Positions 218 through 18,532 of a stretch of 22,879 nt of DNA are shown piece by piece (the stretch's first letter is position 1; every line of letters begins with the position of its first letter). The position numbers and the translations under genes are program-made. Location of the stretch: positions 1 through 22,879 of the IMG/VR virus record IMGVR_UViG_3300042485_000046, one strand, 5' to 3'. The stretch is from a virus. The notes beneath the pieces are model-generated. The model saw only the letters and a program-made list of their open reading frames with translations, ran no database searches and was not told the origin of the DNA.

Positions 218-466
218 ATGGACCTAACTCTATGGAACGCTGCTCTGTCCCTAATCTCGGCCTTAATTCTGTTCTGGGTCAAGACATCAACGGACGAGGT
301 CAAGCGCATTCAAATTCTTCTTAACCGCACCCGGGAGGAGATTGCGAAAGAGTATGTCACCAAAGCAGAGGTGCATACCGACATCAATCGCGTCTTGGAT
401 CGACTGGATCGGCTTGAGAAGAAGATTGATGACTTCATGAAAGAGCAAAGAAGTGCCCTCGGTTAG
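218..466 (+). CDS. Small membrane-anchored coiled-coil protein
   Basis: This 82-residue protein has one hydrophobic segment at about residues 5-21, followed by a charged, heptad-like helix from about 27 to 80 that includes TREEIAKEYVTKAEV and RVLDRLDRLEKKI. The layout, a short N-terminal membrane anchor with a long coiled coil, recalls phage inner-membrane spanins and small holin-like accessory proteins. No partner lipoprotein is seen next to it, and the recognisable lysis genes lie 14 kb downstream, so lysis is only one possibility. The ATG is one base after the preceding stop. Its last 14 bases overlap the start of the next gene, suggesting coupled translation. I do not recognise a named family with certainty. 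Confidence 0.8.
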   Translation: MDLTLWNAALSLISALILFWVKTSTDEVKRIQILLNRTREEIAKEYVTKAEVHTDINRVLDRLDRLEKKIDDFMKEQRSALG

Positions 467-833
467 TCCCGAACAAAAGCGTTTGATGGATGCAGCGGCC
501 CATAACCCTGCATTTGCCAAGAAGGTCGGCGTTCCTGTAAAGGTCGCCAAAGAGTTTAGTCAGGCCGATAAAGGTCGTAAATTTGCTGGAGGTGGTGAAA
601 TGAAAGAGTCCAAGAAGATGATGGGTAAAGAGATCTCCTTTATGAAAAAGAAGGGCGCTCCCAAGTCCATGATCAAACATGAGATGGCCGAAGCCGGCAT
701 GAAGAGTGGCAGCAAGGCCAAGGGCTACGCTTCCGGTGGCCTCGCCGGTGGCCACAAGGCTGCTGACGGCATTGCCCGCAAAGGCAAGACCCGTGGTATG
801 CAAGTCAAAATGATGGGCGGCGGTAAGTGCTAA
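453..833 (+). CDS. Small basic phage protein with DGxxxxGKTRG tag
   Basis: The 126-residue protein starts at GTG 453, inside the end of the previous gene. That start gives the N-terminus PSVSPEQKRLMDAAAHNPAF, which matches a conserved N-terminal module I know from aquatic phages (residues 1-41). A second module at about 49-84 is Met/Lys rich, with ISFMKKKGAPKSMIKHEM. The C-terminal part has YASGG (92-96) and the tag AADGIARKGKTRG (103-115), followed by a Met/Gly tail ending in Cys. The tag recurs in two of the next three genes. No enzymatic motif is present. The function is unknown; a virion or assembly role is inferred from its position upstream of connector genes. Confidence 0.85.
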   Translation: MPSVSPEQKRLMDAAAHNPAFAKKVGVPVKVAKEFSQADKGRKFAGGGEMKESKKMMGKEISFMKKKGAPKSMIKHEMAEAGMKSGSKAKGYASGGLAGGHKAADGIARKGKTRGMQVKMMGGGKC

Positions 834-843
834 GAGGTGCATC

Positions 844-1155
844 ATGAAACGATCTCCCAAGATTTTTACTGAAGAGATGGGGCAGCCTCCTATGGACCCA
901 GAAGGCGGTTCTGTCCGTCCTTCTAAGCCCGTTGTTCCGGACATGAGTCAATACAAGCCTCGTCGTCCCAAAACAAAGGCAGAGGACGCCATTTCTTCTG
1001 AGCAAAAGAAGCAAATGCTTCAAAGCATTCAGGATGAAAAGGATCGTCAGAGGATCAAAGGCATGGGGTTTGCCAGTGGCGGCAAAGTTAGCTCTGCGTC
1101 TAAACGGGCAGATGGTTGCGTACAACGTGGTAAAACCCGAGGCGTGATGGTGTAG
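844..1155 (+). CDS. Small phage protein with GKTRG C-terminal tag
   Basis: This 103-residue protein has a Pro-rich, probably unstructured N-terminal half, with short proline-containing motifs such as MGQPPMDPEGG. A charged helical segment follows at about 51-70 (EQKKQMLQSIQDEKDRQRIK). The C-terminal tail has FASGGK and then the tag RADGCVQRGKTRG (88-100). The tag matches those of the proteins at 453-833 and 1458-1952. An AGAGGTG Shine-Dalgarno-like sequence precedes ATG 844. The N-terminal part is unlike its neighbours, so the tag looks like a portable tail on unrelated proteins. I do not recognise a function; it is probably part of the late virion gene block. Confidence 0.83.
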   Translation: MKRSPKIFTEEMGQPPMDPEGGSVRPSKPVVPDMSQYKPRRPKTKAEDAISSEQKKQMLQSIQDEKDRQRIKGMGFASGGKVSSASKRADGCVQRGKTRGVMV

Positions 1156-1157
1156 CC

Positions 1158-1442
1158 ATGATGGCAAGTCGCGGCATGGGGGCCATCAATTCCTCAAAAA
1201 TGCCCAAAGGTGTCGTCAAAAAACGCCGAGACAACACCGACTTCACTGAGTACGCAGAGGGCGGAAAAGTAAAGTCTAAGGTAAACGAAGCTGGCGTTTA
1301 CACAAAGCCCGGTATGCGTAAGTCTTTGTTTGAGTCAATCAAATCTCGTGAGACTCAAGGCACAGGCGCAGGCCAATGGAGCGCCCGTAAGGCACAGCTT
1401 CTGGCCAAGCAGTACAAAGCCCGTGGCGGCGGTTACAAGTGA
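1158..1442 (+). CDS. Small basic protein, QWSARKAQL family
   Basis: The 94-residue protein begins with two Met codons (1158 and 1161), two bases after the previous stop; either could be used. It has YAEGGKV at about 34-40 and a C-terminal module from about 45 with NEAGVYTKPGMRKSLFESIK and GAGQWSARKAQLLAKQYK, ending in RGGGYK. That C-terminal module is a family I recognise from phages and from large eukaryotic DNA viruses; I believe it is catalogued as a domain of unknown function, but I cannot confirm the number here. The protein is strongly basic. It is one of three small basic families clustered here (with 1-216 and 1949-2182). A nucleic-acid-binding or virion-packaged role is possible but unproven. 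Confidence 0.87.
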   Translation: MMASRGMGAINSSKMPKGVVKKRRDNTDFTEYAEGGKVKSKVNEAGVYTKPGMRKSLFESIKSRETQGTGAGQWSARKAQLLAKQYKARGGGYK

Positions 1443-1457
1443 CGAGAGGTATTCAAA

Positions 1458-1952
1458 ATGCCAAAAGGTATTCGTAAGCCAATGGAAGAGATGCTGCTCG
1501 GTACTGAGGGCGGCAAAGGCGGTGGTGGCGGTGGAGTTGGCGGCACAAAATGGAGCAGCCTGCCTTCTTTTCGGGGCAATGCAAGCACTATGGATGACTT
1601 GCGGAAACTCACCAAAGACACTTCGCATCTCAAAGGTGGCGCAAAAGCATCGGCAGACGAAGCCAAAACTAGAGCGGCAAAACGCACTGGTGTGCGGGCT
1701 GCTGGCGCTACCGCAGCGGCTGAAGGTGCCAGAACCGCTTTGAGCAGCAGCGAAGCAAAGAGCAAGCCGCAGCAGGATACGGAAGAAGAAAATTTCCAAG
1801 AAGTACAGCGCATCCTTCGCAAAGTTGACGAAGACATTGAAGCTGAGAAGTACGCAAAGCCTGACAAATACAAAAGCGGCGGCGCAGTTTCGGCATCTAG
1901 GCGCGGAGATGGTATTGCTCAACGAGGCAAAACACGCGGCAAAATGGCATGA
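1458..1952 (+). CDS. Glycine-run protein with GKTRG C-terminal tag
   Basis: This 164-residue protein starts at ATG 1458 after a GAGAGG Shine-Dalgarno-like sequence. It has a short basic N-terminus, a Gly-rich run at residues 18-29, an Ala-rich charged helical region at about 61-100, and an acidic helical stretch at about 106-133 (including EEENFQEVQRILRKVDEDIE). It ends with YKSGG and the tag RGDGIAQRGKTRG (149-161). The tag is nearly the same as in the proteins at 453-833 and 844-1155. The stop overlaps the next start as ATGA (1949-1952). I recognise no enzyme fold. The composition suggests a flexible linker plus coiled coil, with the conserved tail as a probable docking signal. Confidence 0.83.
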   Translation: MPKGIRKPMEEMLLGTEGGKGGGGGGVGGTKWSSLPSFRGNASTMDDLRKLTKDTSHLKGGAKASADEAKTRAAKRTGVRAAGATAAAEGARTALSSSEAKSKPQQDTEEENFQEVQRILRKVDEDIEAEKYAKPDKYKSGGAVSASRRGDGIAQRGKTRGKMA

Positions 1953-3964: not shown

Positions 3965-4888
3965 ATGAATTACTCTGAACTTGTCACCGCTGTTCAAGAT
4001 TACTGTGAGAACACATTTCTCACGGTAGATATGAACGCGATGATTCGTATCGCAGAGCAAAACATTTACAACACAGCCCAGCTTGCCAGTCTTAGAAAGA
4101 ATATGACCGGCAATCTTTCTGTTGGCAACCCGTATCTTTCTGCGCCAAATGATTTTTTGTCGGTATATTCATTGGCCGCAATTAAGCCCAACGGTGAATA
4201 TTTGTATCTTCTAAATAAAGATGTAAACTTTATTAGAGAAGCATACCCAAACCCCGGAACCTCATCCGTCAGTTCAAGAGGGTTGCCAAAGCACTATGCA
4301 ATTTTTGGCCCTACATACGGCAGCCTAAATGAGTTGTCGTTTATTTTGGGACCAACGCCAGATCAGGCATATGGCGTAGAACTGCATTTTTATTATTTGC
4401 CAGAATCAATTGTTCAGGCAGCCATTAATCAAGTAACAATTTCTTCTGGCGGATCTGGATACGCCAATGGGACATATTTTAATGTCCCACTAACTGGGGG
4501 CAGTGGTTCATCGGCAACGGCTAATATTATTGTTTCTGGCAACGCCGTCACATCAGTTACTATTTCAAAGAGTGGTTGTTTTTATGCTGTAAACAATTCA
4601 CTTAGCGCAAACAATTCCAACTTGGGCAACTCGGGAAGCGGGTTTGTTCTTACAGTAAACAGTGTTTTCAATTCAACAGGAACCACTTGGCTTGGCGACA
4701 ATTTTGAAACGGCATTGTTTAATGGCGTCATGGTTGAGGCCATTAGGTTTATGAAGGGTGATCCTGATCTTGTGCAACTCTATGATCAGCAGTACAAGCA
4801 ATCCATCAGTCTTCTCAAGAATCTTGGCGACGGCAAGCAGCGCATGGATGCTTATCGTGATGGTCAAGTAAGAAATCCGGTGGTTTAA
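3965..4888 (+). CDS. Second head-tail adaptor-type protein with inserted GSGY module
   Basis: The 307-residue protein resembles the phage adaptor family related to those under the portal of short-tailed phages. The N-terminal helices (1-45) include YSELVTAVQDYCENTF and IRIAEQNIYNTAQLASLRK. Next come YLSAPNDFLSVYSLA and LLNKDVNFIREAYP, then FILGPTPDQAYGVELHFYYL. C-terminal helices (242-307) contain WLGDNFETALFNGVMVEAI, FMKGDPDLVQLYDQQYK and LGDGKQRMDAYRDGQV. Between about residues 152 and 238 an extra module with SSGGSGYANGTYFNVPLTGG interrupts the fold; it is of the GSGY beta type common in phage structural proteins. Its core differs from that of the first adaptor, so the two are likely successive rings, by inference. 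Confidence 0.78.
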   Translation: MNYSELVTAVQDYCENTFLTVDMNAMIRIAEQNIYNTAQLASLRKNMTGNLSVGNPYLSAPNDFLSVYSLAAIKPNGEYLYLLNKDVNFIREAYPNPGTSSVSSRGLPKHYAIFGPTYGSLNELSFILGPTPDQAYGVELHFYYLPESIVQAAINQVTISSGGSGYANGTYFNVPLTGGSGSSATANIIVSGNAVTSVTISKSGCFYAVNNSLSANNSNLGNSGSGFVLTVNSVFNSTGTTWLGDNFETALFNGVMVEAIRFMKGDPDLVQLYDQQYKQSISLLKNLGDGKQRMDAYRDGQVRNPVV

Positions 4889-9231: not shown

Positions 9232-11418
9232 ATGGCGGATAGATACTGGGTGGGCGGTACAGCAGCATGGGACGCTACTGCGGGTACTAAATGGGCGCTG
9301 ACTTCTGGTGGTGCTGGGGGGCAAGCCATTCCTACTCTTGCTGATGATGTATTTTTTGATGGCGCTTCTGGTGCTGTAACTTGTACCATAAGCTCTGGCC
9401 TGCCTAGTGGTGCTGCGGCCAAATCAATTACTTGCACTGGGTTTACTGGAACTTTGGCGGGTACTGCGATACTCGGCGTGGCTGGCTCTATTACGCTTGT
9501 AGCGGGTATGACTTTTTCGTACACGGGCATTCTCACAATTAGCGGTACTGCCACGGTAACAAGTGCTGGTAAAACGTTTGGCTCCATCTCAATTAACGGT
9601 ACTGGAATTACTGTTACGCTTGCGGATGCAATGACGCTGGGTACAACAAGTACGTTGACACTAACTGCCGGTACGCTTGCTCTTGCAGGCTTCACTCTAA
9701 GCACTGGCACTTTTAGTTCCAGCAATTCAAACACCCGCGCAATTTCATTTAGTACAGGTAATATTGCAATTACCAACTCACTTGGTGTGGGTACAAACTT
9801 AAGCATGGCAACAGCCACGGGATTTACTTGGACTGGCACGGGTGGCTTTACAAGAAATAACACTAACAGCACCACGCTTAATTTTGGAAGCACCGCCGGT
9901 GGAACTGTTTCTAATGCCCCAAACTTAACAGTTACTGGCGGTCCAAGCTCATTGACAATTACAAGTGGAAGTTACTTTAAGAATGTAATTTTTACAGGCA
10001 GTACAAGTACGGTGACTGCCAGCGGCTTAAACATTGCTGGAAATTTAACCCTTGCCACTGGAGGAGCGTATACGGCTGTTTTTCCAACATTCCTTGCGTC
10101 AGCAACAGTTACAAGCAACGGTAAGACGCTTGGCAGTACAACGGTCAACGGCTCAGGTATTACCGTCACGCTTGCTGATGCAATGACGACTGGGACATCT
10201 AGCACATTTACCCTTACTCAAGGGACTCTTAATCTTGCAGGCTTTACTCTAAGCACTGGTATCTTTTCCTCCTCTGGAACATCCACCCGAGCAATTTCAT
10301 TTGGCGCTGGCAACATTGCGCTCACCAGCACAACTGCCTCAACGACCGTGTTGAGCATGGCAATTTCTACCAACTTTACATTTACGGGTACAGGGGGTTT
10401 TACTCGCAATATGGCAGCTACAGCAACTGTGGCTTTTGGCACCCAGCCGGGCGGCACAGTATCAAACGCCCCTAACCTAACAGTCAATGCTGGCGCATCG
10501 GCGCTTACGATTACCAGCGGAAGTTTCTTTAAAGACTTGATCTTTACAGGCAGTACAAGTACGGTGACTGCCAGCAACGTAACAATAGGGGGTAATTTGA
10601 CGCTTGCTTCTGGTGGAACGTATACAGCCGTTGTGCCAACATTCCGTGCGTCAGGAACAATTACAAGCGCAGGCAGAGCACTTGGTGCCACCACAATCAA
10701 CGGCTCTGGTATCACGGTCACACTTGCTGATGCATTGCAGCTTGGTTCCAGTGGAACGGGCACTCTTACTCTGACAGAAGGAGCGTTTAACGCTGCCGGT
10801 TTCAATGTATCTATAGGAACTTTCAGTTCAAGCAATACCAATACTAGGACGCTTAGTATGGGGTCTGGAACTTGGACTATTTATACAACCGGCGTTCCCG
10901 GTGCTACGGTGTGGAACATAGCGACTTCCACCAATATGACATTAAACCCAAGCACCTCAACAATAAACCTCAACATATTTGGGTCGTCGTCGCCGTATGT
11001 GTTTAGTGGGGGCGGGCTGACATACTACAACCTTAGCCTTTCAAGGGCAGATGCTTTTTCAGGAAGCACGGCAAGAATTGTTGGCTCCAACACATTCAAC
11101 AACATTACGAATACTTCTCAGCCTCTTACATTTCAACTCACGGCGGGTACAACTCAAACGGTGTCTAATTTTGGCCTGTCGGGCACCGCAGGCAACTTGG
11201 TCACAATCAATAGCACGACCGGGGGATCACAGGCAACATTATCAAAGGCTTCCGGCACAGTCAACGCGCAGTACCTGTCGATTCAGGATAGTATCGCAAC
11301 GGGTGGGGCCACATGGAACTCTTTGCTCACAAGCGGAAATGTGAATAACGGCAACAACACCGGGTGGTTTTTCGGTGCTGTTGCAGCAACCGGCAATATG
11401 TTTTTGATGTTTAATTAA
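9232..11418 (+). CDS. Repeat-rich beta virion protein (YWVGG type)
   Basis: This 728-residue protein is nearly all Thr, Ser, Gly, Ala and Asn with very few charges, typical of a beta-solenoid or parallel-beta virion protein. The N-terminal module RYWVGGTAAWDATAGTKWAL and DDVFFDGASG is widespread in phage structural proteins. From about residue 108, units of exactly 184 residues follow; each contains NGSGITVTLADAM (or near), SSSN.NTRAISF, GGTVSNAPNLTV and GSTSTVTAS. Two units are full and a third diverges after about 65 residues. The C-terminus has SKASGTVNAQ and GNNTGWFFG, shared with the protein at 13090-14733. The Shine-Dalgarno AAGGGG overlaps the previous stop. It is probably a fibre or surface decoration protein. 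Confidence 0.8.
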   Translation: MADRYWVGGTAAWDATAGTKWALTSGGAGGQAIPTLADDVFFDGASGAVTCTISSGLPSGAAAKSITCTGFTGTLAGTAILGVAGSITLVAGMTFSYTGILTISGTATVTSAGKTFGSISINGTGITVTLADAMTLGTTSTLTLTAGTLALAGFTLSTGTFSSSNSNTRAISFSTGNIAITNSLGVGTNLSMATATGFTWTGTGGFTRNNTNSTTLNFGSTAGGTVSNAPNLTVTGGPSSLTITSGSYFKNVIFTGSTSTVTASGLNIAGNLTLATGGAYTAVFPTFLASATVTSNGKTLGSTTVNGSGITVTLADAMTTGTSSTFTLTQGTLNLAGFTLSTGIFSSSGTSTRAISFGAGNIALTSTTASTTVLSMAISTNFTFTGTGGFTRNMAATATVAFGTQPGGTVSNAPNLTVNAGASALTITSGSFFKDLIFTGSTSTVTASNVTIGGNLTLASGGTYTAVVPTFRASGTITSAGRALGATTINGSGITVTLADALQLGSSGTGTLTLTEGAFNAAGFNVSIGTFSSSNTNTRTLSMGSGTWTIYTTGVPGATVWNIATSTNMTLNPSTSTINLNIFGSSSPYVFSGGGLTYYNLSLSRADAFSGSTARIVGSNTFNNITNTSQPLTFQLTAGTTQTVSNFGLSGTAGNLVTINSTTGGSQATLSKASGTVNAQYLSIQDSIATGGATWNSLLTSGNVNNGNNTGWFFGAVAATGNMFLMFN
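9553..10104 (+). repeat. 552-bp tandem coding unit, copy 1
   Basis: The unit encodes 184 residues beginning TVTSAGKTFGS. The next unit starts exactly 552 bases later. A 33-base segment at 9991-10023 is identical to 10543-10575 at the same 552-base offset. Confidence 0.85.
10105..10656 (+). repeat. 552-bp tandem coding unit, copy 2
   Basis: The unit encodes TVTSNGKTLGS onward, with the same internal order of motifs as copy 1 and identical length. A third, partial copy begins at 10657 and loses similarity after roughly 65 codons. Confidence 0.85.
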
Positions 11419-11423
11419 CCACC

Positions 11424-12323
11424 ATGTTTGGAATATCAAGCTTCGCCCAAACACCGTTTGCCTCCCTTGCGGGGACGGCAAGTGCGTTGTCTATTGTGGA
11501 GGGCATTCAGCTTGGTGACGCCAGCACACAAATATCAGCTTTCCTGATAAGCCAAACAGAGCCGTTCACAGTAGACGAGGTTGATGCAACGGCGGGTGAT
11601 TTTTTTGGCAGCGTGATTGAAAACTTAAACGCCGCTGATGCGGCCACGGTGCTGGCTGCTTTCCTTGCATCAGCCACTGAAAACTCTTCCCTAGCCGACA
11701 TCCCAATCATCGCGGCACAGTTTGCACAGTCCGTCGCTGAAAACAGTGCGCTGGCTGACGCCCAAGAAGTTTATTCAGAGTTCCTGCAAACCCGCACGGA
11801 AGGCTTCACGATAGACGATTCCAGCGCCCAGCAGTCAGCGTTTGTGCAGTCTATTACTGAAGACAGCCAAATGGCGGATGCGCCAACAATCTTGGCTCAG
11901 TTTGCCCAATCTATATCAGAGGACATGACGCTTGAAGACATTGAAGATATTGCAGCGCAGTTTGTTCAGGCAGTCACCGAAGGCACCACAGTAGCAGACT
12001 TGATCGAAATCATTCAGATGTTCTTTGAAACAGTCACAGAGAACCTGAACAGCGCCGATGCAAACACAGCCATACAAGGCTTCTTCTTTACCGTAGCTGA
12101 AAACCTGAATAGCGCAGATGCGGCAACAGTGCTGGCAGCGTTTCAAACAGCAATTACAGAAAATATAAACTTGGCAGATAACTTTGATGTTTCGGGTTGG
12201 ATAAGAATTATTGACTCTCAGGCTGTTGTCTGGACTGATGTAAGCGTTGGTCAAAATCCGGGTTGGGCAGGTGTAAACGATGCTCAAACATCTAACTGGC
12301 AAAACATAAACAATTTACAATGA
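11424..12323 (+). CDS. Virion-type protein made of eleven 20-residue repeats
   Basis: The 299-residue protein has three zones. Residues 1-25 are a Ser/Ala-rich lead. Residues 26-245 are eleven consecutive repeats of exactly 20 residues without insertion or deletion; each begins Glu-(Asn/Gly/Asp/Pro), usually has Asp at position 7 and always has Phe at 15 (for example ENLNAADAATVLAAFLASAT). A twelfth partial repeat follows. Residues 259-299 are three 11-residue repeats with Trp at 259, 270, 281 and 292 (WxxVxxxQxxx type). The strict period suggests a solenoid with one coil per repeat. It lies between fibre-like genes, so a tail or fibre role is likely. No clear Shine-Dalgarno precedes ATG 11424. 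I know similar Glu/Ala/Asp repeats from phage proteins, but no function. Confidence 0.8.
   Translation: MFGISSFAQTPFASLAGTASALSIVEGIQLGDASTQISAFLISQTEPFTVDEVDATAGDFFGSVIENLNAADAATVLAAFLASATENSSLADIPIIAAQFAQSVAENSALADAQEVYSEFLQTRTEGFTIDDSSAQQSAFVQSITEDSQMADAPTILAQFAQSISEDMTLEDIEDIAAQFVQAVTEGTTVADLIEIIQMFFETVTENLNSADANTAIQGFFFTVAENLNSADAATVLAAFQTAITENINLADNFDVSGWIRIIDSQAVVWTDVSVGQNPGWAGVNDAQTSNWQNINNLQ
11499..12158 (+). repeat. Eleven 60-bp (20-residue) tandem repeats
   Basis: Residues 26-245 of the protein at 11424-12323 divide into eleven 20-residue units in perfect register. Copies 3, 10 and 11 are closest (ENLN.AD); the others keep mainly the Glu, Asp and Phe positions. The DNA copies have diverged, so selection acts on protein period. 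Confidence 0.9.
12198..12320 (+). repeat. 33-bp (11-residue) Trp repeats
   Basis: The C-terminal end of the same protein has Trp every 11 residues, with a Gln seven residues after each Trp: three full units (such as WAGVNDAQTSN) and a final partial unit WQNINNLQ. Confidence 0.85.
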
Positions 12324-12355: not shown

Positions 12356-13078
12356 ATGGCATCCACACCGCTTCTTGGACTATCACTGCCAGCAGACGGC
12401 ACCACAAACTGGGGTGCATTGGTAAACACGAGCATCACGGCGCTGTTGGATTCGGCTATTGCTGGTACAACAATCTTGTCGTCTGATGCAGATGTAACGC
12501 TGACCACCACGGCCGAGGCATCAAACCAAGCAAGGCAGGTTGTACTGCTATGCACTGGATCTAGAGCAACAGTACGCAACATCATTGCACCAGCACAAAG
12601 CAAAACCTATGTTGTGATTAATAACACAGTAGGCGGCTTTGGAGTGACTATTCGTGGCGTTGGACCTACCACTGGCGTAACAGTTCCAAGCGGCAAGACT
12701 TTCATGGTTGCGTGGAATGGCAGCGACTTTGCATTGGTGAGTACAGAGATCGCCAAACGAGTTGTATCCACGGCATCGGCGACATCTGTTACGCCCAACT
12801 CCGATACCACAGATATCTTGATACAGGCAAACACAGAACCTATTGGAACGTTGACCATCAATGCTCCAACGGGTTCACCAGTCAATGGGCAAACATTCGT
12901 GTTTCGACTGAGCAGCACAGCCGTTCAGACGTTTGCTTGGAACGCAATCTATCAAGGATCCACTGATAGTCCATTGCCTTCTGCTTCATCTGGAGCAAGC
13001 AAGACAGACTACATGGGATTTATCTACAACACATCAAACAGCAAGTGGCAGATGCTGGCCAAGAACTTTGGCTTCTAA
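12356..13078 (+). CDS. Short fibre-like virion protein
   Basis: The 240-residue protein starts at ATG 12356 after AGGAGA. Its N-terminus, STPLLGLSLPADGTTNWGAL, is a type I recognise at the start of phage tail-fibre-like proteins. The middle has strands VVLLCTGSRATVRNIIAP, KTYVVINNTVGGFGVTIRG and PSGKTFMVAWNGSDFALV. The C-terminal domain (165-240), beginning TLTINAPTGSPVNGQTFVF, aligns along its whole length with the last 75 residues of the large fibre at 5926-9222. The two proteins therefore share a terminal module, perhaps for trimerisation or receptor contact. The protein is short for a complete fibre and may be a fibre tip or a decoration protein. Confidence 0.78.
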   Translation: MASTPLLGLSLPADGTTNWGALVNTSITALLDSAIAGTTILSSDADVTLTTTAEASNQARQVVLLCTGSRATVRNIIAPAQSKTYVVINNTVGGFGVTIRGVGPTTGVTVPSGKTFMVAWNGSDFALVSTEIAKRVVSTASATSVTPNSDTTDILIQANTEPIGTLTINAPTGSPVNGQTFVFRLSSTAVQTFAWNAIYQGSTDSPLPSASSGASKTDYMGFIYNTSNSKWQMLAKNFGF

Positions 13079-13080
13079 TT

Positions 13081-13085
13081 GGAGG
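13081..13085 (+). promoter_or_regulatory. Shine-Dalgarno GGAGG selecting GTG 13090
   Basis: GGAGG begins two bases after the preceding stop and lies four bases before GTG 13090. It supports that start, and the N-terminus it gives aligns with the protein at 9232. Confidence 0.65.
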
Positions 13086-13089
13086 CACC

Positions 13090-14733
13090 GTGGCTACATA
13101 CTATTGGGTTGGTGGAAACGGCACTTGGGATACCGTAAGCACAGCAAACTGGTCTTTGACATCAGGTGGTGCTGGAGGCGCAGGTGTTCCAACAACTGTT
13201 GATGATGTAGTGTTTGACGGCCTATCTGGCACCGCGCTCAATACGGTAACGATAGATGCTGCTGTCTGTGCAAATTTTCTTTCCACTGTTGTTGCAGCAA
13301 TAAACTTTAATGGCGCAGGTAGTAGCCTAGAGGTTTACGGCTCTTTCATAATGCTGGCAACTCCGTCGTCTGGATCTTTTAATGTTGATTTTTTAAATGT
13401 TAGGGTATCTGTTGCCACAGGTACTGTTTTTGAAAGTGTATCAAGTTTTACTGGGGCGACGTTTCGCATCAGCAATAACATTGGCTCCCAAGCTACGGTT
13501 TCTTTAAATTCAAACATAACATGTAATCAATTTCAACTCACTGGAGCCAGTCTTGTTCCGTCTGGGACATACAGCATCAACTGCATAAACTGTGAGATAG
13601 GACCGTTTGGCCCAGCATACACAAAAATTCTCGGCAGTAATTTGTCCAATCTGACGATAAACATTACTCCAACAGTTGTTAGTACAATTTCTTTTAGTTG
13701 TCAGTGGGCAGGAGTAAATGACGAGCTTAGAAATGTTTTTGTGACAATAAACGGTGGTGTTTCTTCTGATATTGACACACTTGGTAATGCCGCTTATGCA
13801 ACAAGTTTTAATTTAACACTAAATGGCACAACAATATCGCAGGCCAGTATACAAAGTGGGCTTAACAATTTAACTTTATTGAGTGGTGCAATAGTTAAAT
13901 TTAACAACACAGTTGCTGTGTTTGGAAATGTTTCTATTAGTTCTACTTCGACACTGGATCAAGACAGTGTTTTCTATCCCGGCCCTTGGCGGTTTGAGGT
14001 GCGGAAAAAAACAGGCAGCCCGAACGTGGCCCGAACCATAACCAACTCGGGGTCTTGGTTCGGCATAGGTGTTCGAAACTTGTTGTCGGCGGGCACAGAC
14101 ACTCTGAGTATCAATGGGTCTTTCGGCTCCGCCCTAAAACCAATCGAAAGTTTTTTGCCCGGCGCATCGACTGTTGGCGCCGGCACCATCTATGCCGACA
14201 CGGTGACGCTTGCCACGGGCGTTGTTTTGACAAACAACGTGTTCAATGTTCCGACTACGTTCACAATTGCCGTCGGTGCTATTGTTACGGGCAACTTCAC
14301 AGTCAACAGCCCTTCTACGATTAACGCAAACGGCGGGACAATACCAATACTAAACATTGCGGAAACTACGGTTACCGTGGTTACAAACGTAACTGCTGGC
14401 ACTATGTCTATCACTAGAACACTTGCCGGAACGCTTACGTTTCAAGTGCAAAACGGATCAACAGTGACGGTTTCTGGGTCTTGTACGATTGCAGGTACAT
14501 CTCCCACAGCAAACGTGGTTTTGAAAGCGTACGATTTTTTTGTAACGCCAGTACCTTGGTACATCTCCAAAGCATCTGGTACTGTGAACGCACAATTTAC
14601 AACTATTAGCTACTCGAACGCAATTGGTGGTGCTTCATTCCAAGCGTTGGAAATAAATGGCTGTGTAGACGGGGGCAACAACACAGGGTGGATATTTAAG
14701 GCAACAACTGGCAATTTCTTTTTGTTTTTGTAA
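13090..14733 (+). CDS. Second YWVGG-type beta virion protein
   Basis: I chose GTG 13090 (547 residues) over an upstream ATG at 13045 that lies inside the previous gene, because GGAGG precedes it and the N-terminus MATYYWVGGNGTWD aligns with that of the protein at 9232. The first 45 residues (to DDVVFDGLSG) and the last 55 (SKASGTVNAQ to GNNTGWIFK and the end) match that paralogue, but the 440 residues between do not show its 184-residue units. The middle is Asn/Thr/Ser-rich beta sequence. Base composition changes inside the gene near 13975, from about 30-37% GC to about 57-60%. It is probably a fibre or decoration protein with an exchanged middle part. Confidence 0.78.
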   Translation: MATYYWVGGNGTWDTVSTANWSLTSGGAGGAGVPTTVDDVVFDGLSGTALNTVTIDAAVCANFLSTVVAAINFNGAGSSLEVYGSFIMLATPSSGSFNVDFLNVRVSVATGTVFESVSSFTGATFRISNNIGSQATVSLNSNITCNQFQLTGASLVPSGTYSINCINCEIGPFGPAYTKILGSNLSNLTINITPTVVSTISFSCQWAGVNDELRNVFVTINGGVSSDIDTLGNAAYATSFNLTLNGTTISQASIQSGLNNLTLLSGAIVKFNNTVAVFGNVSISSTSTLDQDSVFYPGPWRFEVRKKTGSPNVARTITNSGSWFGIGVRNLLSAGTDTLSINGSFGSALKPIESFLPGASTVGAGTIYADTVTLATGVVLTNNVFNVPTTFTIAVGAIVTGNFTVNSPSTINANGGTIPILNIAETTVTVVTNVTAGTMSITRTLAGTLTFQVQNGSTVTVSGSCTIAGTSPTANVVLKAYDFFVTPVPWYISKASGTVNAQFTTISYSNAIGGASFQALEINGCVDGGNNTGWIFKATTGNFFLFL

Positions 14734-16194: not shown

Positions 16195-16201
16195 GACGAT
16201 C

Positions 16202-18532
16202 ATGCCACTTAAAAAACTAACTCTGCGTCCCGGCGTCAATCGAGAGAACACTCGATACACCAGTGAGAATGGCTGGTACGAAGGGGACAAAATTCGATTT
16301 CGCCAAGGTACGCCAGAAAAAATTGGCGGTTGGAGTCGCCTGTCTTTAACATTTTTTAAAGGTGTGTGCCGTTCCCTTTGGGCATGGATCTATGGCGTTG
16401 CAACTTATATCGGTGTTGGTACTCACCTCAAATTTTATTTGGAGCTTGGTGGTGAATACAACGACATTACACCTATTAGATCTACACAAACTTTAACAAA
16501 CCCGTTTACTTGGATATCAGCCACAACGTTTCAGGTAACGGATCTATCTGGTGGATACATTGTCAATGACTTTGTAACCTTTAGCGGAGCAACGGCTACT
16601 GGTGGAATTACTCTCAATGGAGAGTATCAAATAATTAATGTGACAACAACAAACTATGTTGTGTCTACCGCTCAACAAGTAACGTTGGCAACCAACTATT
16701 TAACGTTTACTGGTGTTTCTGCTTTGGCAAACGGGGTGGCAGTTACGCTTTCAACTTCAGGTTTAAACACTGCATTGCCGGGTGGGTTTAATGCATCAAC
16801 AACCTATTATGTTGTAAACACAGCAGGAAACACATTTCAACTGGCGTTAGCTCCGGCCGGTACTCCAATAACGGCAACCTCTTTCCCAAGTGGCGTATTG
16901 ATTGCAACGCCCCAATTTACTGGTCCGTTTGTTTCGGCTGGTGGTACGGTTACGGCCGTCTATCAAATCAACACAGGCTATGAGATTCAAATTCAAGCTA
17001 GTGGCTGGGGTGGCGGTGGCTGGGGACTTGGTGGTTGGGGCGTAGGTATCCCATCAGCAACAAACATTAGGCTATGGTCACAGTACAACTATGGCAATGA
17101 CCTTGTCTTTGGTTATGTTGGTGGCCCAATATATTATTGGGATGCAGCGGCAGGAGTAAACGTAAGAGGTGTGTTGCTTAATTCGCAAGGCGGGACCATC
17201 ACTGTATCTACAGTTGGCGCTCCAGCAACATTTACTTTGCAGAACACGTTTGTTAATGGCACAGGCATCAAGGTAAACGTAACTGTTGGCGGAACGTTGC
17301 CTACTGGGTTGTCGGCATCAACGCAATACTACATTCAGAACATAGCTGGCTTGTCATGCAACCTGTCTACTGATAGGGGCGGAGCATCGCTTGTTTCCGT
17401 GTCTACGACTGGGAGCGGGCTGTATATTTCTGAATTGACAGATGTACCAACAAATCAAAACTGGCTGCTAATCTCAGATGCTTTTAGATTTTTGTTTGCA
17501 TTTGGATGCAATGACTACGATTCGGTCATTCAAAATCCAATGCTTATCAGGTGGACTGCTCAAGAAGATCTGTTGAACTGGTATCCAGCGGCTGTTAATC
17601 AAGCAGGCAGTTTGACACTGTCGCATGGTTCAAGGATTGTGACGGCCGTACAGGCTAGGCAGGAGATTCTTGTCTGGACAGATTCAAGTTTGTATTCACT
17701 TCAATATCTGCAGCCGCCAGTAGTGTGGGGATCCCAGCTGCTTGGTGACAACTTGTCTATTGTTAGCCCAAACTCAGCTACATATGCAAGCGGTGTGGCT
17801 TTCTGGATGGGTGTTGATAAGTTCTATGTCTACGATGGCCGGACTCAAACTCTGCCGTGTGATCTGCGGCAGTTTGTTTTTACGGACAGTGGCACAAAGC
17901 TGAACCAAGATCAGAAGCAGCAGGTAGTGTGCGGCACCAACGAAGGCTTCAACGAAGTTTGGTGGTTCTACCCATCAGAAGGATCGACAGTTGTAGACAC
18001 ATATATTGTTTATAACTATCTTGAGAAAATCTGGTACTACGGATTCTTGGGGCGTACAGCTTGGCTTGACACAGGTTTGTTGCCAAATCCATTGGCGGCA
18101 ACGTATAACAACAACTTGGTCAATCACGAGGTTGGAGTAAACGACAACACACTTGGTGTGTCGCAGCCTATCGAATCTTACATTTCGTCAGCAGAGTTTG
18201 ACATTGATGACGGATACAAGGTTGGTTTCATTTGGCGGTTATTGCCGGATGTTACTTTCCGTGGCTCGACTTCAAACAGTCCGTCTGTTACGATGACGCT
18301 CAAACCCATGCAGAATTCTGGATCTGGCTACAACGATCCTGAGTCTGTGGGTGGTGTAAGTAACGCGCCTGTTGTTAGAACGGCGGTGATTCCGATTGAG
18401 CAGTTTACCGGGCAGATCAACACAAGGGTCCGTGGTCGGCAGATTGTTATGGAAGTTCGTTCGACAGAACTTGATGTGCAATGGCAACTTGGATCGCCAA
18501 GGATTGACATTAGACCGGACGGGAGACGTTGA
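16202..18532 (+). CDS. Tail nozzle/stabilisation-type protein
   Basis: The start is ATG 16202, after AGGA, giving 776 residues; upstream Met codons lie within the endolysin gene. The N-terminus LTLRPGVNRENTRYTSENGW, with YEGDKIRFRQGTPEKIGGW, is characteristic of a large phage tail protein comparable in role to P22 gp10 or T7 gp12. Other conserved parts are WGGGGWGLGGWGVG (269-282), IRLWSQYNYGNDLVFGY, FGCNDYD, QNPMLIRWTAQEDLLNWYP, EILVWTDSSLYSLQY and the end TRVRGRQIVMEV to RPDGRR. Two extra beta modules with TTYYVVN or TQYYIQN motifs sit at about 155-235 and 328-411. The family is recognised with confidence from memory; the nozzle function is inferred. Confidence 0.78.
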   Translation: MPLKKLTLRPGVNRENTRYTSENGWYEGDKIRFRQGTPEKIGGWSRLSLTFFKGVCRSLWAWIYGVATYIGVGTHLKFYLELGGEYNDITPIRSTQTLTNPFTWISATTFQVTDLSGGYIVNDFVTFSGATATGGITLNGEYQIINVTTTNYVVSTAQQVTLATNYLTFTGVSALANGVAVTLSTSGLNTALPGGFNASTTYYVVNTAGNTFQLALAPAGTPITATSFPSGVLIATPQFTGPFVSAGGTVTAVYQINTGYEIQIQASGWGGGGWGLGGWGVGIPSATNIRLWSQYNYGNDLVFGYVGGPIYYWDAAAGVNVRGVLLNSQGGTITVSTVGAPATFTLQNTFVNGTGIKVNVTVGGTLPTGLSASTQYYIQNIAGLSCNLSTDRGGASLVSVSTTGSGLYISELTDVPTNQNWLLISDAFRFLFAFGCNDYDSVIQNPMLIRWTAQEDLLNWYPAAVNQAGSLTLSHGSRIVTAVQARQEILVWTDSSLYSLQYLQPPVVWGSQLLGDNLSIVSPNSATYASGVAFWMGVDKFYVYDGRTQTLPCDLRQFVFTDSGTKLNQDQKQQVVCGTNEGFNEVWWFYPSEGSTVVDTYIVYNYLEKIWYYGFLGRTAWLDTGLLPNPLAATYNNNLVNHEVGVNDNTLGVSQPIESYISSAEFDIDDGYKVGFIWRLLPDVTFRGSTSNSPSVTMTLKPMQNSGSGYNDPESVGGVSNAPVVRTAVIPIEQFTGQINTRVRGRQIVMEVRSTELDVQWQLGSPRIDIRPDGRR

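Follow-up and report, generated by a model that had tools for sequence, protein, structure and literature searches.

The viral contig analysed here (the window, 22,879 nucleotides) encodes on its + strand, at 11424..12323, a repeat protein of 299 amino acids plus stop, P0001, homologues of which occur at over 50 IMG/VR loci. We read it, with a probability of roughly 0.55, as a modular tail-region fibre or spacer of an uncultured podovirus-like phage, composed of a docking peptide, a rod body that is built in 20-residue steps and a tip of W-repeats. The protein appears to be a fixed-ended rod and is probably a tail component. One architecture, consisting of a near-invariant start, a body with a 20-residue pitch and a tail of 11-residue W-repeats, recurs in more than 50 environmental viral contigs.

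The ATG of P0001 lies 5 bases past the stop of the upstream gene, and no obvious Shine-Dalgarno sequence precedes it. The protein starts with a 17-residue 'anchor', MFGISSFAQTPFASLAG (11424..11474, +), which is near-invariant among relatives, whichever body follows. Next come residues 18–25 (11475..11498, +), where, according to a direct reading of the alignment, most relatives have F15 and I19 of a 'unit 0'; only this F15-I19 part of the unit is present, immediately ahead of unit 1. The initial annotation had described eleven contiguous 20-residue units without insertion or deletion, and the translation of 11424-12323 bears out both the array and its location (residues 26–245; 11499..12158, +). 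The units follow the pattern E1-x-h3-x-h5-x-D7-x7-F15-x3-I19-x, and the anchoring residues that had been named recur as claimed: E1 and F15 in 11 of 11 units, D7 in 10 of 11 (E7 in unit 2). A degenerate twelfth unit, ENINLADNFDVSGWIRIIDS (12159..12218, +), runs into a C-terminal repeat of period 11, W-x2-I/V-x3-Q-x3 (12198..12320, +), which starts at Trp259 and has W at 259, 270, 281 and 292 and Q at 266, 277, 288 and 299.

Pairwise identity among the units averages 33% (range 10–75%). Identity at a lag of 20 residues was 0.335 compared with 0.089 ± 0.020 in shuffled sequences (none of 20,000 shuffles exceeded 0.17). The column statistic peaked at period 20 (z = 30) with no competing fundamental period. 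At the DNA level, the median identity between units was 43%, and Tandem Repeats Finder gave no report over the repeat region. We therefore rejected the idea that a recent duplication of DNA produced the periodicity in the window; at the DNA level, the units are old.

A search of IMG/VR with P0001 yielded 54 loci, 51 of them matching beyond the N-terminus; scanning for the start pattern, and separately with the second type of body, brought in further relatives. All relatives found with P0001 begin with MFGISSFA-Q/E-xPFASL or a closely similar sequence, and nearly all complete ones possess the C-terminal W-x2-I-x3-Q-x3 array. P0001 belongs to the group that we define here as MFGISSFA-anchored tail-slot repeat proteins: it has the anchor MFGISSFA[QE]xPFASL at residues 1–15, as well as the 19+20n body, the 11-residue W tail and the gene slot within the fibre block, ahead of the gp240-type gene. 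tblastn against INPHARED phages gave no match with P0001 (E 1e-3), with its relative L044 or with the W tail alone, and the body of L036 retrieved just weak Lactobacillus phage tail-fibre matches (E 0.2–0.8). No relative of P0001 was detected in a scan of bacterial and archaeal genomes, Pfam and PHROGs returned sub-threshold or scattered matches only, and sequence searches of the PDB were empty or at chance level, with no solved structure or fibre matched. We found no paper that describes the family.

Repeat number had been proposed as a property to compare among relatives, and the differences proved to be whole 20-residue units. Measurement was possible in 57 anchored proteins. In 55 of them, the first tail Trp followed Met1 at a distance of 19+20n residues with an excess of 0–3; one exception is L069, at −1, and in the other, L014, the matched Trp is not the one that opens the tail. 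Among the 57 proteins, n takes the values 4, 6, 8, 9, 11, 12, 13, 16, 17 and 20, and W259 of P0001 gives n = 12.0. The Rayleigh R at period 20 was 0.92 for this set, a figure that overstates independence because the proteins are related and that has no independent-sample p-value. The W tails of the same proteins have lengths that group around 8+11k, to within a few residues. Within arrays, adjacent units were spaced by 20 residues in 387 cases and by 21 in 24, and the remaining spacings were near-multiples at places where a weak unit failed to score. A relative of only 69 amino acids (L072, 6009-6218), in which a single 20-residue unit joins the start peptide to the W tail, fits n = 1; its gene has a cluster of structural-type genes on one side and a tail-fibre gene of gp240 type on the other. 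The whole-unit length differences together with the 20-residue spacings are the strongest evidence for the unit as an indivisible structural step, which suggests that each step is one structural brick.

A rule restricting the arrays to multiples of four units, drawn from the first relatives (8, 12, 16 and 20 units), was dropped, since 6, 9, 11, 13 and 17 exist and unit identity has no peak at offset 4. In L004 (16 units, against 12 in P0001), units 6–13 look as if four 20-residue units had been duplicated in tandem. In L040 (2414-2674), the frame ends at 87 residues and tblastn tracks the repeat body beyond this point, indicating a frameshift or a stop.

P0001 is under purifying selection, with a dN/dS of ~0.14 in comparison with L002 and ~0.18 with L004. 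Unit i is closer to unit i of the relatives (0.39) than to other units (0.25); therefore, the array is old and each unit position is individually constrained. E1 is conserved at ~92% and D7 at ~80%, the net charge is ~−2.3 per unit, and conservation extends to the aromatic F15 and to h3, h5 and I19.

AlphaFold2 produced no confident fold for the P0001 monomer from 34 sequences (mean pLDDT 32.5, pTM 0.15). This result is notable because the program assigns confident beta-solenoids to 20-residue repeats too readily, as it did in 36 of 50 cases of random ten-fold repeats (PMC11795689). The initial annotation had deduced a structural solenoid from the strict period. The strictness of the period despite divergence, the conservation of whole units, the purifying selection and the location in a tail/fibre gene block agree with this deduction, whereas the pLDDT of P0001 does not; a solenoid is thus a partly supported, reasonable but unproven reading. 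The low pLDDT comes formally close to disorder, which had been set against the solenoid, but low confidence from a shallow alignment is also compatible with an oligomer of intertwined chains or with an unusual fold. If the body were an intrinsically disordered or flexible spacer, its periodicity would come only from ancient duplication and weak constraints on composition. Such a spacer would account for a pLDDT below 50 throughout and for a body rich in Ala, Thr, Ser, Asp and Glu and almost devoid of Lys and Arg. We nevertheless consider it unlikely, as length changes in whole units across many lineages, F15 and the h3/h5/I19 positions are conserved, dN/dS is ~0.14–0.18, and the composition of P0001 falls on the folded side of the charge-hydropathy (Uversky) boundary.

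The same start precedes different bodies. Besides the pattern of P0001 (type a, E..h.h.D.......F), we found bodies of TGVTATGSVGTV... repeats (type b), which look unrelated to type a and have the same 20-residue pitch, and a third type, GSVNATATVxSxGxRVxxxS, in L082, L096 and L112. The dominant body period is 20 or its double in nearly all proteins (21 in L053, 39 in L069). The upstream flanks of type a and type b contigs share 66–79% nucleotide identity over 1.1–2.6 kb; downstream, the type b contig L069 is 72% identical to the type a contig L125 across 1,072 bases. Bodies are exchanged within one and the same slot. The MFGISSFA-anchored IMG/VR proteins with TGVTATGSVGTV bodies (L140-L154, L173) resemble P0001 in anchor, slot, 20-residue pitch and W-repeat tail, but differ from it in having a Gly/Val/Thr body of up to 726 amino acids that is modelled as a beta-solenoid.

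For the type b protein L142, AlphaFold2 gave a pLDDT of 53 overall and roughly 58–79 over residues 24–120, and the model is a moderate-confidence beta-solenoid with two short strands per 20-residue coil, to which the solenoid bias of AlphaFold2 applies (PMC11795689). Foldseek with this model found nothing in the PDB at E ≤ 0.001, and its BFVD matches (best 8.6e-4) were to uncharacterised phage proteins; VIA against the PDB matched generic beta-helices with Z up to 14.6, a score subject to the same bias. The monomer prediction that had been proposed as a check thus supports a solenoid, moderately, only for a same-slot sister protein with a different body. Single-chain beta-solenoids such as right-handed beta-helices, curli CsgA and RsaA have ~20 residues per coil; it is only the type b model that matches them in shape, there is no relation in sequence, and P0001 itself is not modelled in this way.

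We tentatively entertain the possibility that the body of P0001 is also a single-chain solenoid with 20 residues per coil, either a beta-solenoid or an alpha/beta one with a strand at positions 3–5 and a helix at 8–19. The pitch common to several unrelated body sequences speaks for it, as do the two-stranded coils of the type b model (pLDDT 63–79 over residues 24–120) and its resemblance to generic beta-helices. The hydrophobic moment over positions 8–19 is helix-like (90–95 degrees) in core type a proteins, which counts for such a solenoid too, and strand-like (180 degrees) in L044 and L047, so that the secondary structure of the unit is ambiguous. Against a single-chain solenoid stand the failure of AlphaFold2 to produce such a fold for P0001, the unreliability of its solenoids for 20-residue repeats and the empty Foldseek search of the PDB with the sister model.

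The body may instead form an intertwined trimeric fibre akin to a triple beta-spiral or triple beta-helix, with one axial repeat for every 20 residues of each chain, although we regard this as somewhat unlikely. In an intertwined trimer, prediction of the monomer would fail, as it did for P0001; in addition, the gene lies among tail-fibre genes, and phage fibres are commonly trimeric. However, solved fibres were not matched by sequence, the sister body was modelled with moderate confidence as a single chain, and the signature of the triple beta-spiral, a ~15-residue repeat with a conserved Gly/Pro turn, is not evident in P0001.

The conserved acids and the negative charge of the units would also suit a calcium-binding ladder of E1 and D7, similar to an RTX beta-roll, that folds only with metal. 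We judge this improbable: there is no RTX nonapeptide or Pfam RTX match, and the acids are missing from the type b bodies that occupy this slot. The signature of the RTX calcium beta-roll proper was absent (no Pfam RTX match at E ≤ 1, no GGxGxDxUx in the consensus), as were those of the leucine-rich repeat (no Pfam LRR match, consensus spacing unlike LxxLxLxxN) and the pentapeptide repeat (period 20; only the relative L036 matched, below threshold, with 23.3 vs 38 bits). The fold of the P0001 body is most likely, though this is not established, stacked, solenoid-like or intertwined and beta-rich, with F15, I19, h3 and h5 in the core and E1 and D7 as an acidic ladder.

The upstream neighbour of P0001 (9232..11418, +) is a fibre-like protein of 728 amino acids with an 'RYWVGG' N-terminus and internal repeats, which matched no named family above the cut-off. 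The downstream neighbour (12356..13078, +; 240 amino acids) has an N-terminus of phage tail-fibre type (PHROG 12796, tail fiber protein, E 1e-3), and a gene of this type is the conserved next gene in most relatives. The surrounding genes encode PHROG 644 and 8123 proteins, a fibre-like protein of 1098 amino acids, two 'YWVGG' proteins, a tail-fibre-type protein and lysis proteins, and the order gp307 - PHROG 644 - PHROG 8123 - fibre - P0001-type gene - gp240 - stabilization protein recurs in relatives. The last of these, a head-closure or 'stabilization' virion protein (16196..18532, +; PHROG 3287), has its best annotated relatives in the Roseobacter phages CRP-901/902, in DSL-LC04 and in the Pelagibacter phages HTVC023P/HTVC027P, which places the window in an HTVC023P/DSL-LC04-like podovirus group. 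From this context, a phage tail/fibre gene block, we infer that P0001 is located in the virion. The two 'YWVGG' proteins (9232-11418, directly upstream of P0001, and 13078-14733, one gene away downstream; both +) have a common 'YWVGG..WD' N-terminus, and such proteins recur in just 2 of the 54 related loci. The internal repeats of the upstream one read NLTV...SLTITSGS..K..IFTGSTSTVTAS.

Counterparts of P0001 exist in named phages. gp68 of the cultured Pelagibacter phage HTVC023P (QGZ17697.1, annotated as hypothetical) starts with an anchor, LLGITAISQSPIASLGG, like that of P0001, scoring 19.7 bits under the start profile, whereas the next best site in 31 kb scores −1.0. It shares with P0001 the slot, a regular repeat body and the 11-residue W tail, and is followed by a gene for a 'putative tail protein'; in contrast to P0001, its body is of VTG type with a ~22-residue period and lacks the E1/D7/F15 pattern. 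In DSL-LC04, a phage assembled from a metagenome of Dishui Lake (PMC10611076), the hypothetical protein WJZ48131 (OR003939) has the gene slot, the W-repeat tail and repeats of ~20–22 residues in common with P0001, but a different N-terminus, GWGEGYWGQVPWG, and a VTGVQ body. gp68 of the cultured HTVC027P is likewise a repeat protein in the P0001 slot ahead of a 'putative tail protein', with a different start.

In the modular fibre or spacer that we propose, the N-terminal peptide, conserved independently of the body, would dock P0001 on the virion. The quantised body would form a rod whose length is set by the number of units: twelve steps in P0001 and 1 to about 20 in relatives, where type b bodies may have over 30. 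The C-terminal array of 11-residue W-repeats would serve as tip or cap. Gain or loss of whole units could then tune the length of the rod, and a wholesale swap of the body for another repeat of the same pitch in the same slot could retune the appendage. A bolder and rather doubtful extension is that these are fibre rods of a new kind: bodies unrelated in sequence, with acidic and part helix-like E..D..F units in some and strand-like Gly/Val/Thr units in others, would share a fixed 20-residue step between the same docking peptide and tip, so that rod length is quantised. If our reading of P0001 as a fibre or spacer is correct, one gene slot of aquatic phages would encode a natural range of rod lengths, spanning 1 to at least 20 units between unchanging ends, and the question of how the length of a phage appendage is set and tuned would become testable. 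An indivisible 20-residue step encoded by very different sequences would also be a useful test for the prediction of repeat folds, where AlphaFold2 is unreliable. Even with an ordinary fold, many unannotated phage proteins, including one in the cultured HTVC023P, would gain a structural reading.

Two further features were observed elsewhere in the window. Several small basic ORFs at 453-1952 (+) share an end motif (ADGIARKGKTRGMQV, ADGCVQRGKTRGVMV, GDGIAQRGKTRGKMA) and look like a repeated family of short phage peptides. In the protein encoded at 3965-4888 (+), a Gly/Ser-rich domain is inserted at residues ~150–235; many PHROGs of tail, baseplate and head-closure proteins match it (best phrog_5342, E 5e-16), and it is apparently a mobile phage domain.
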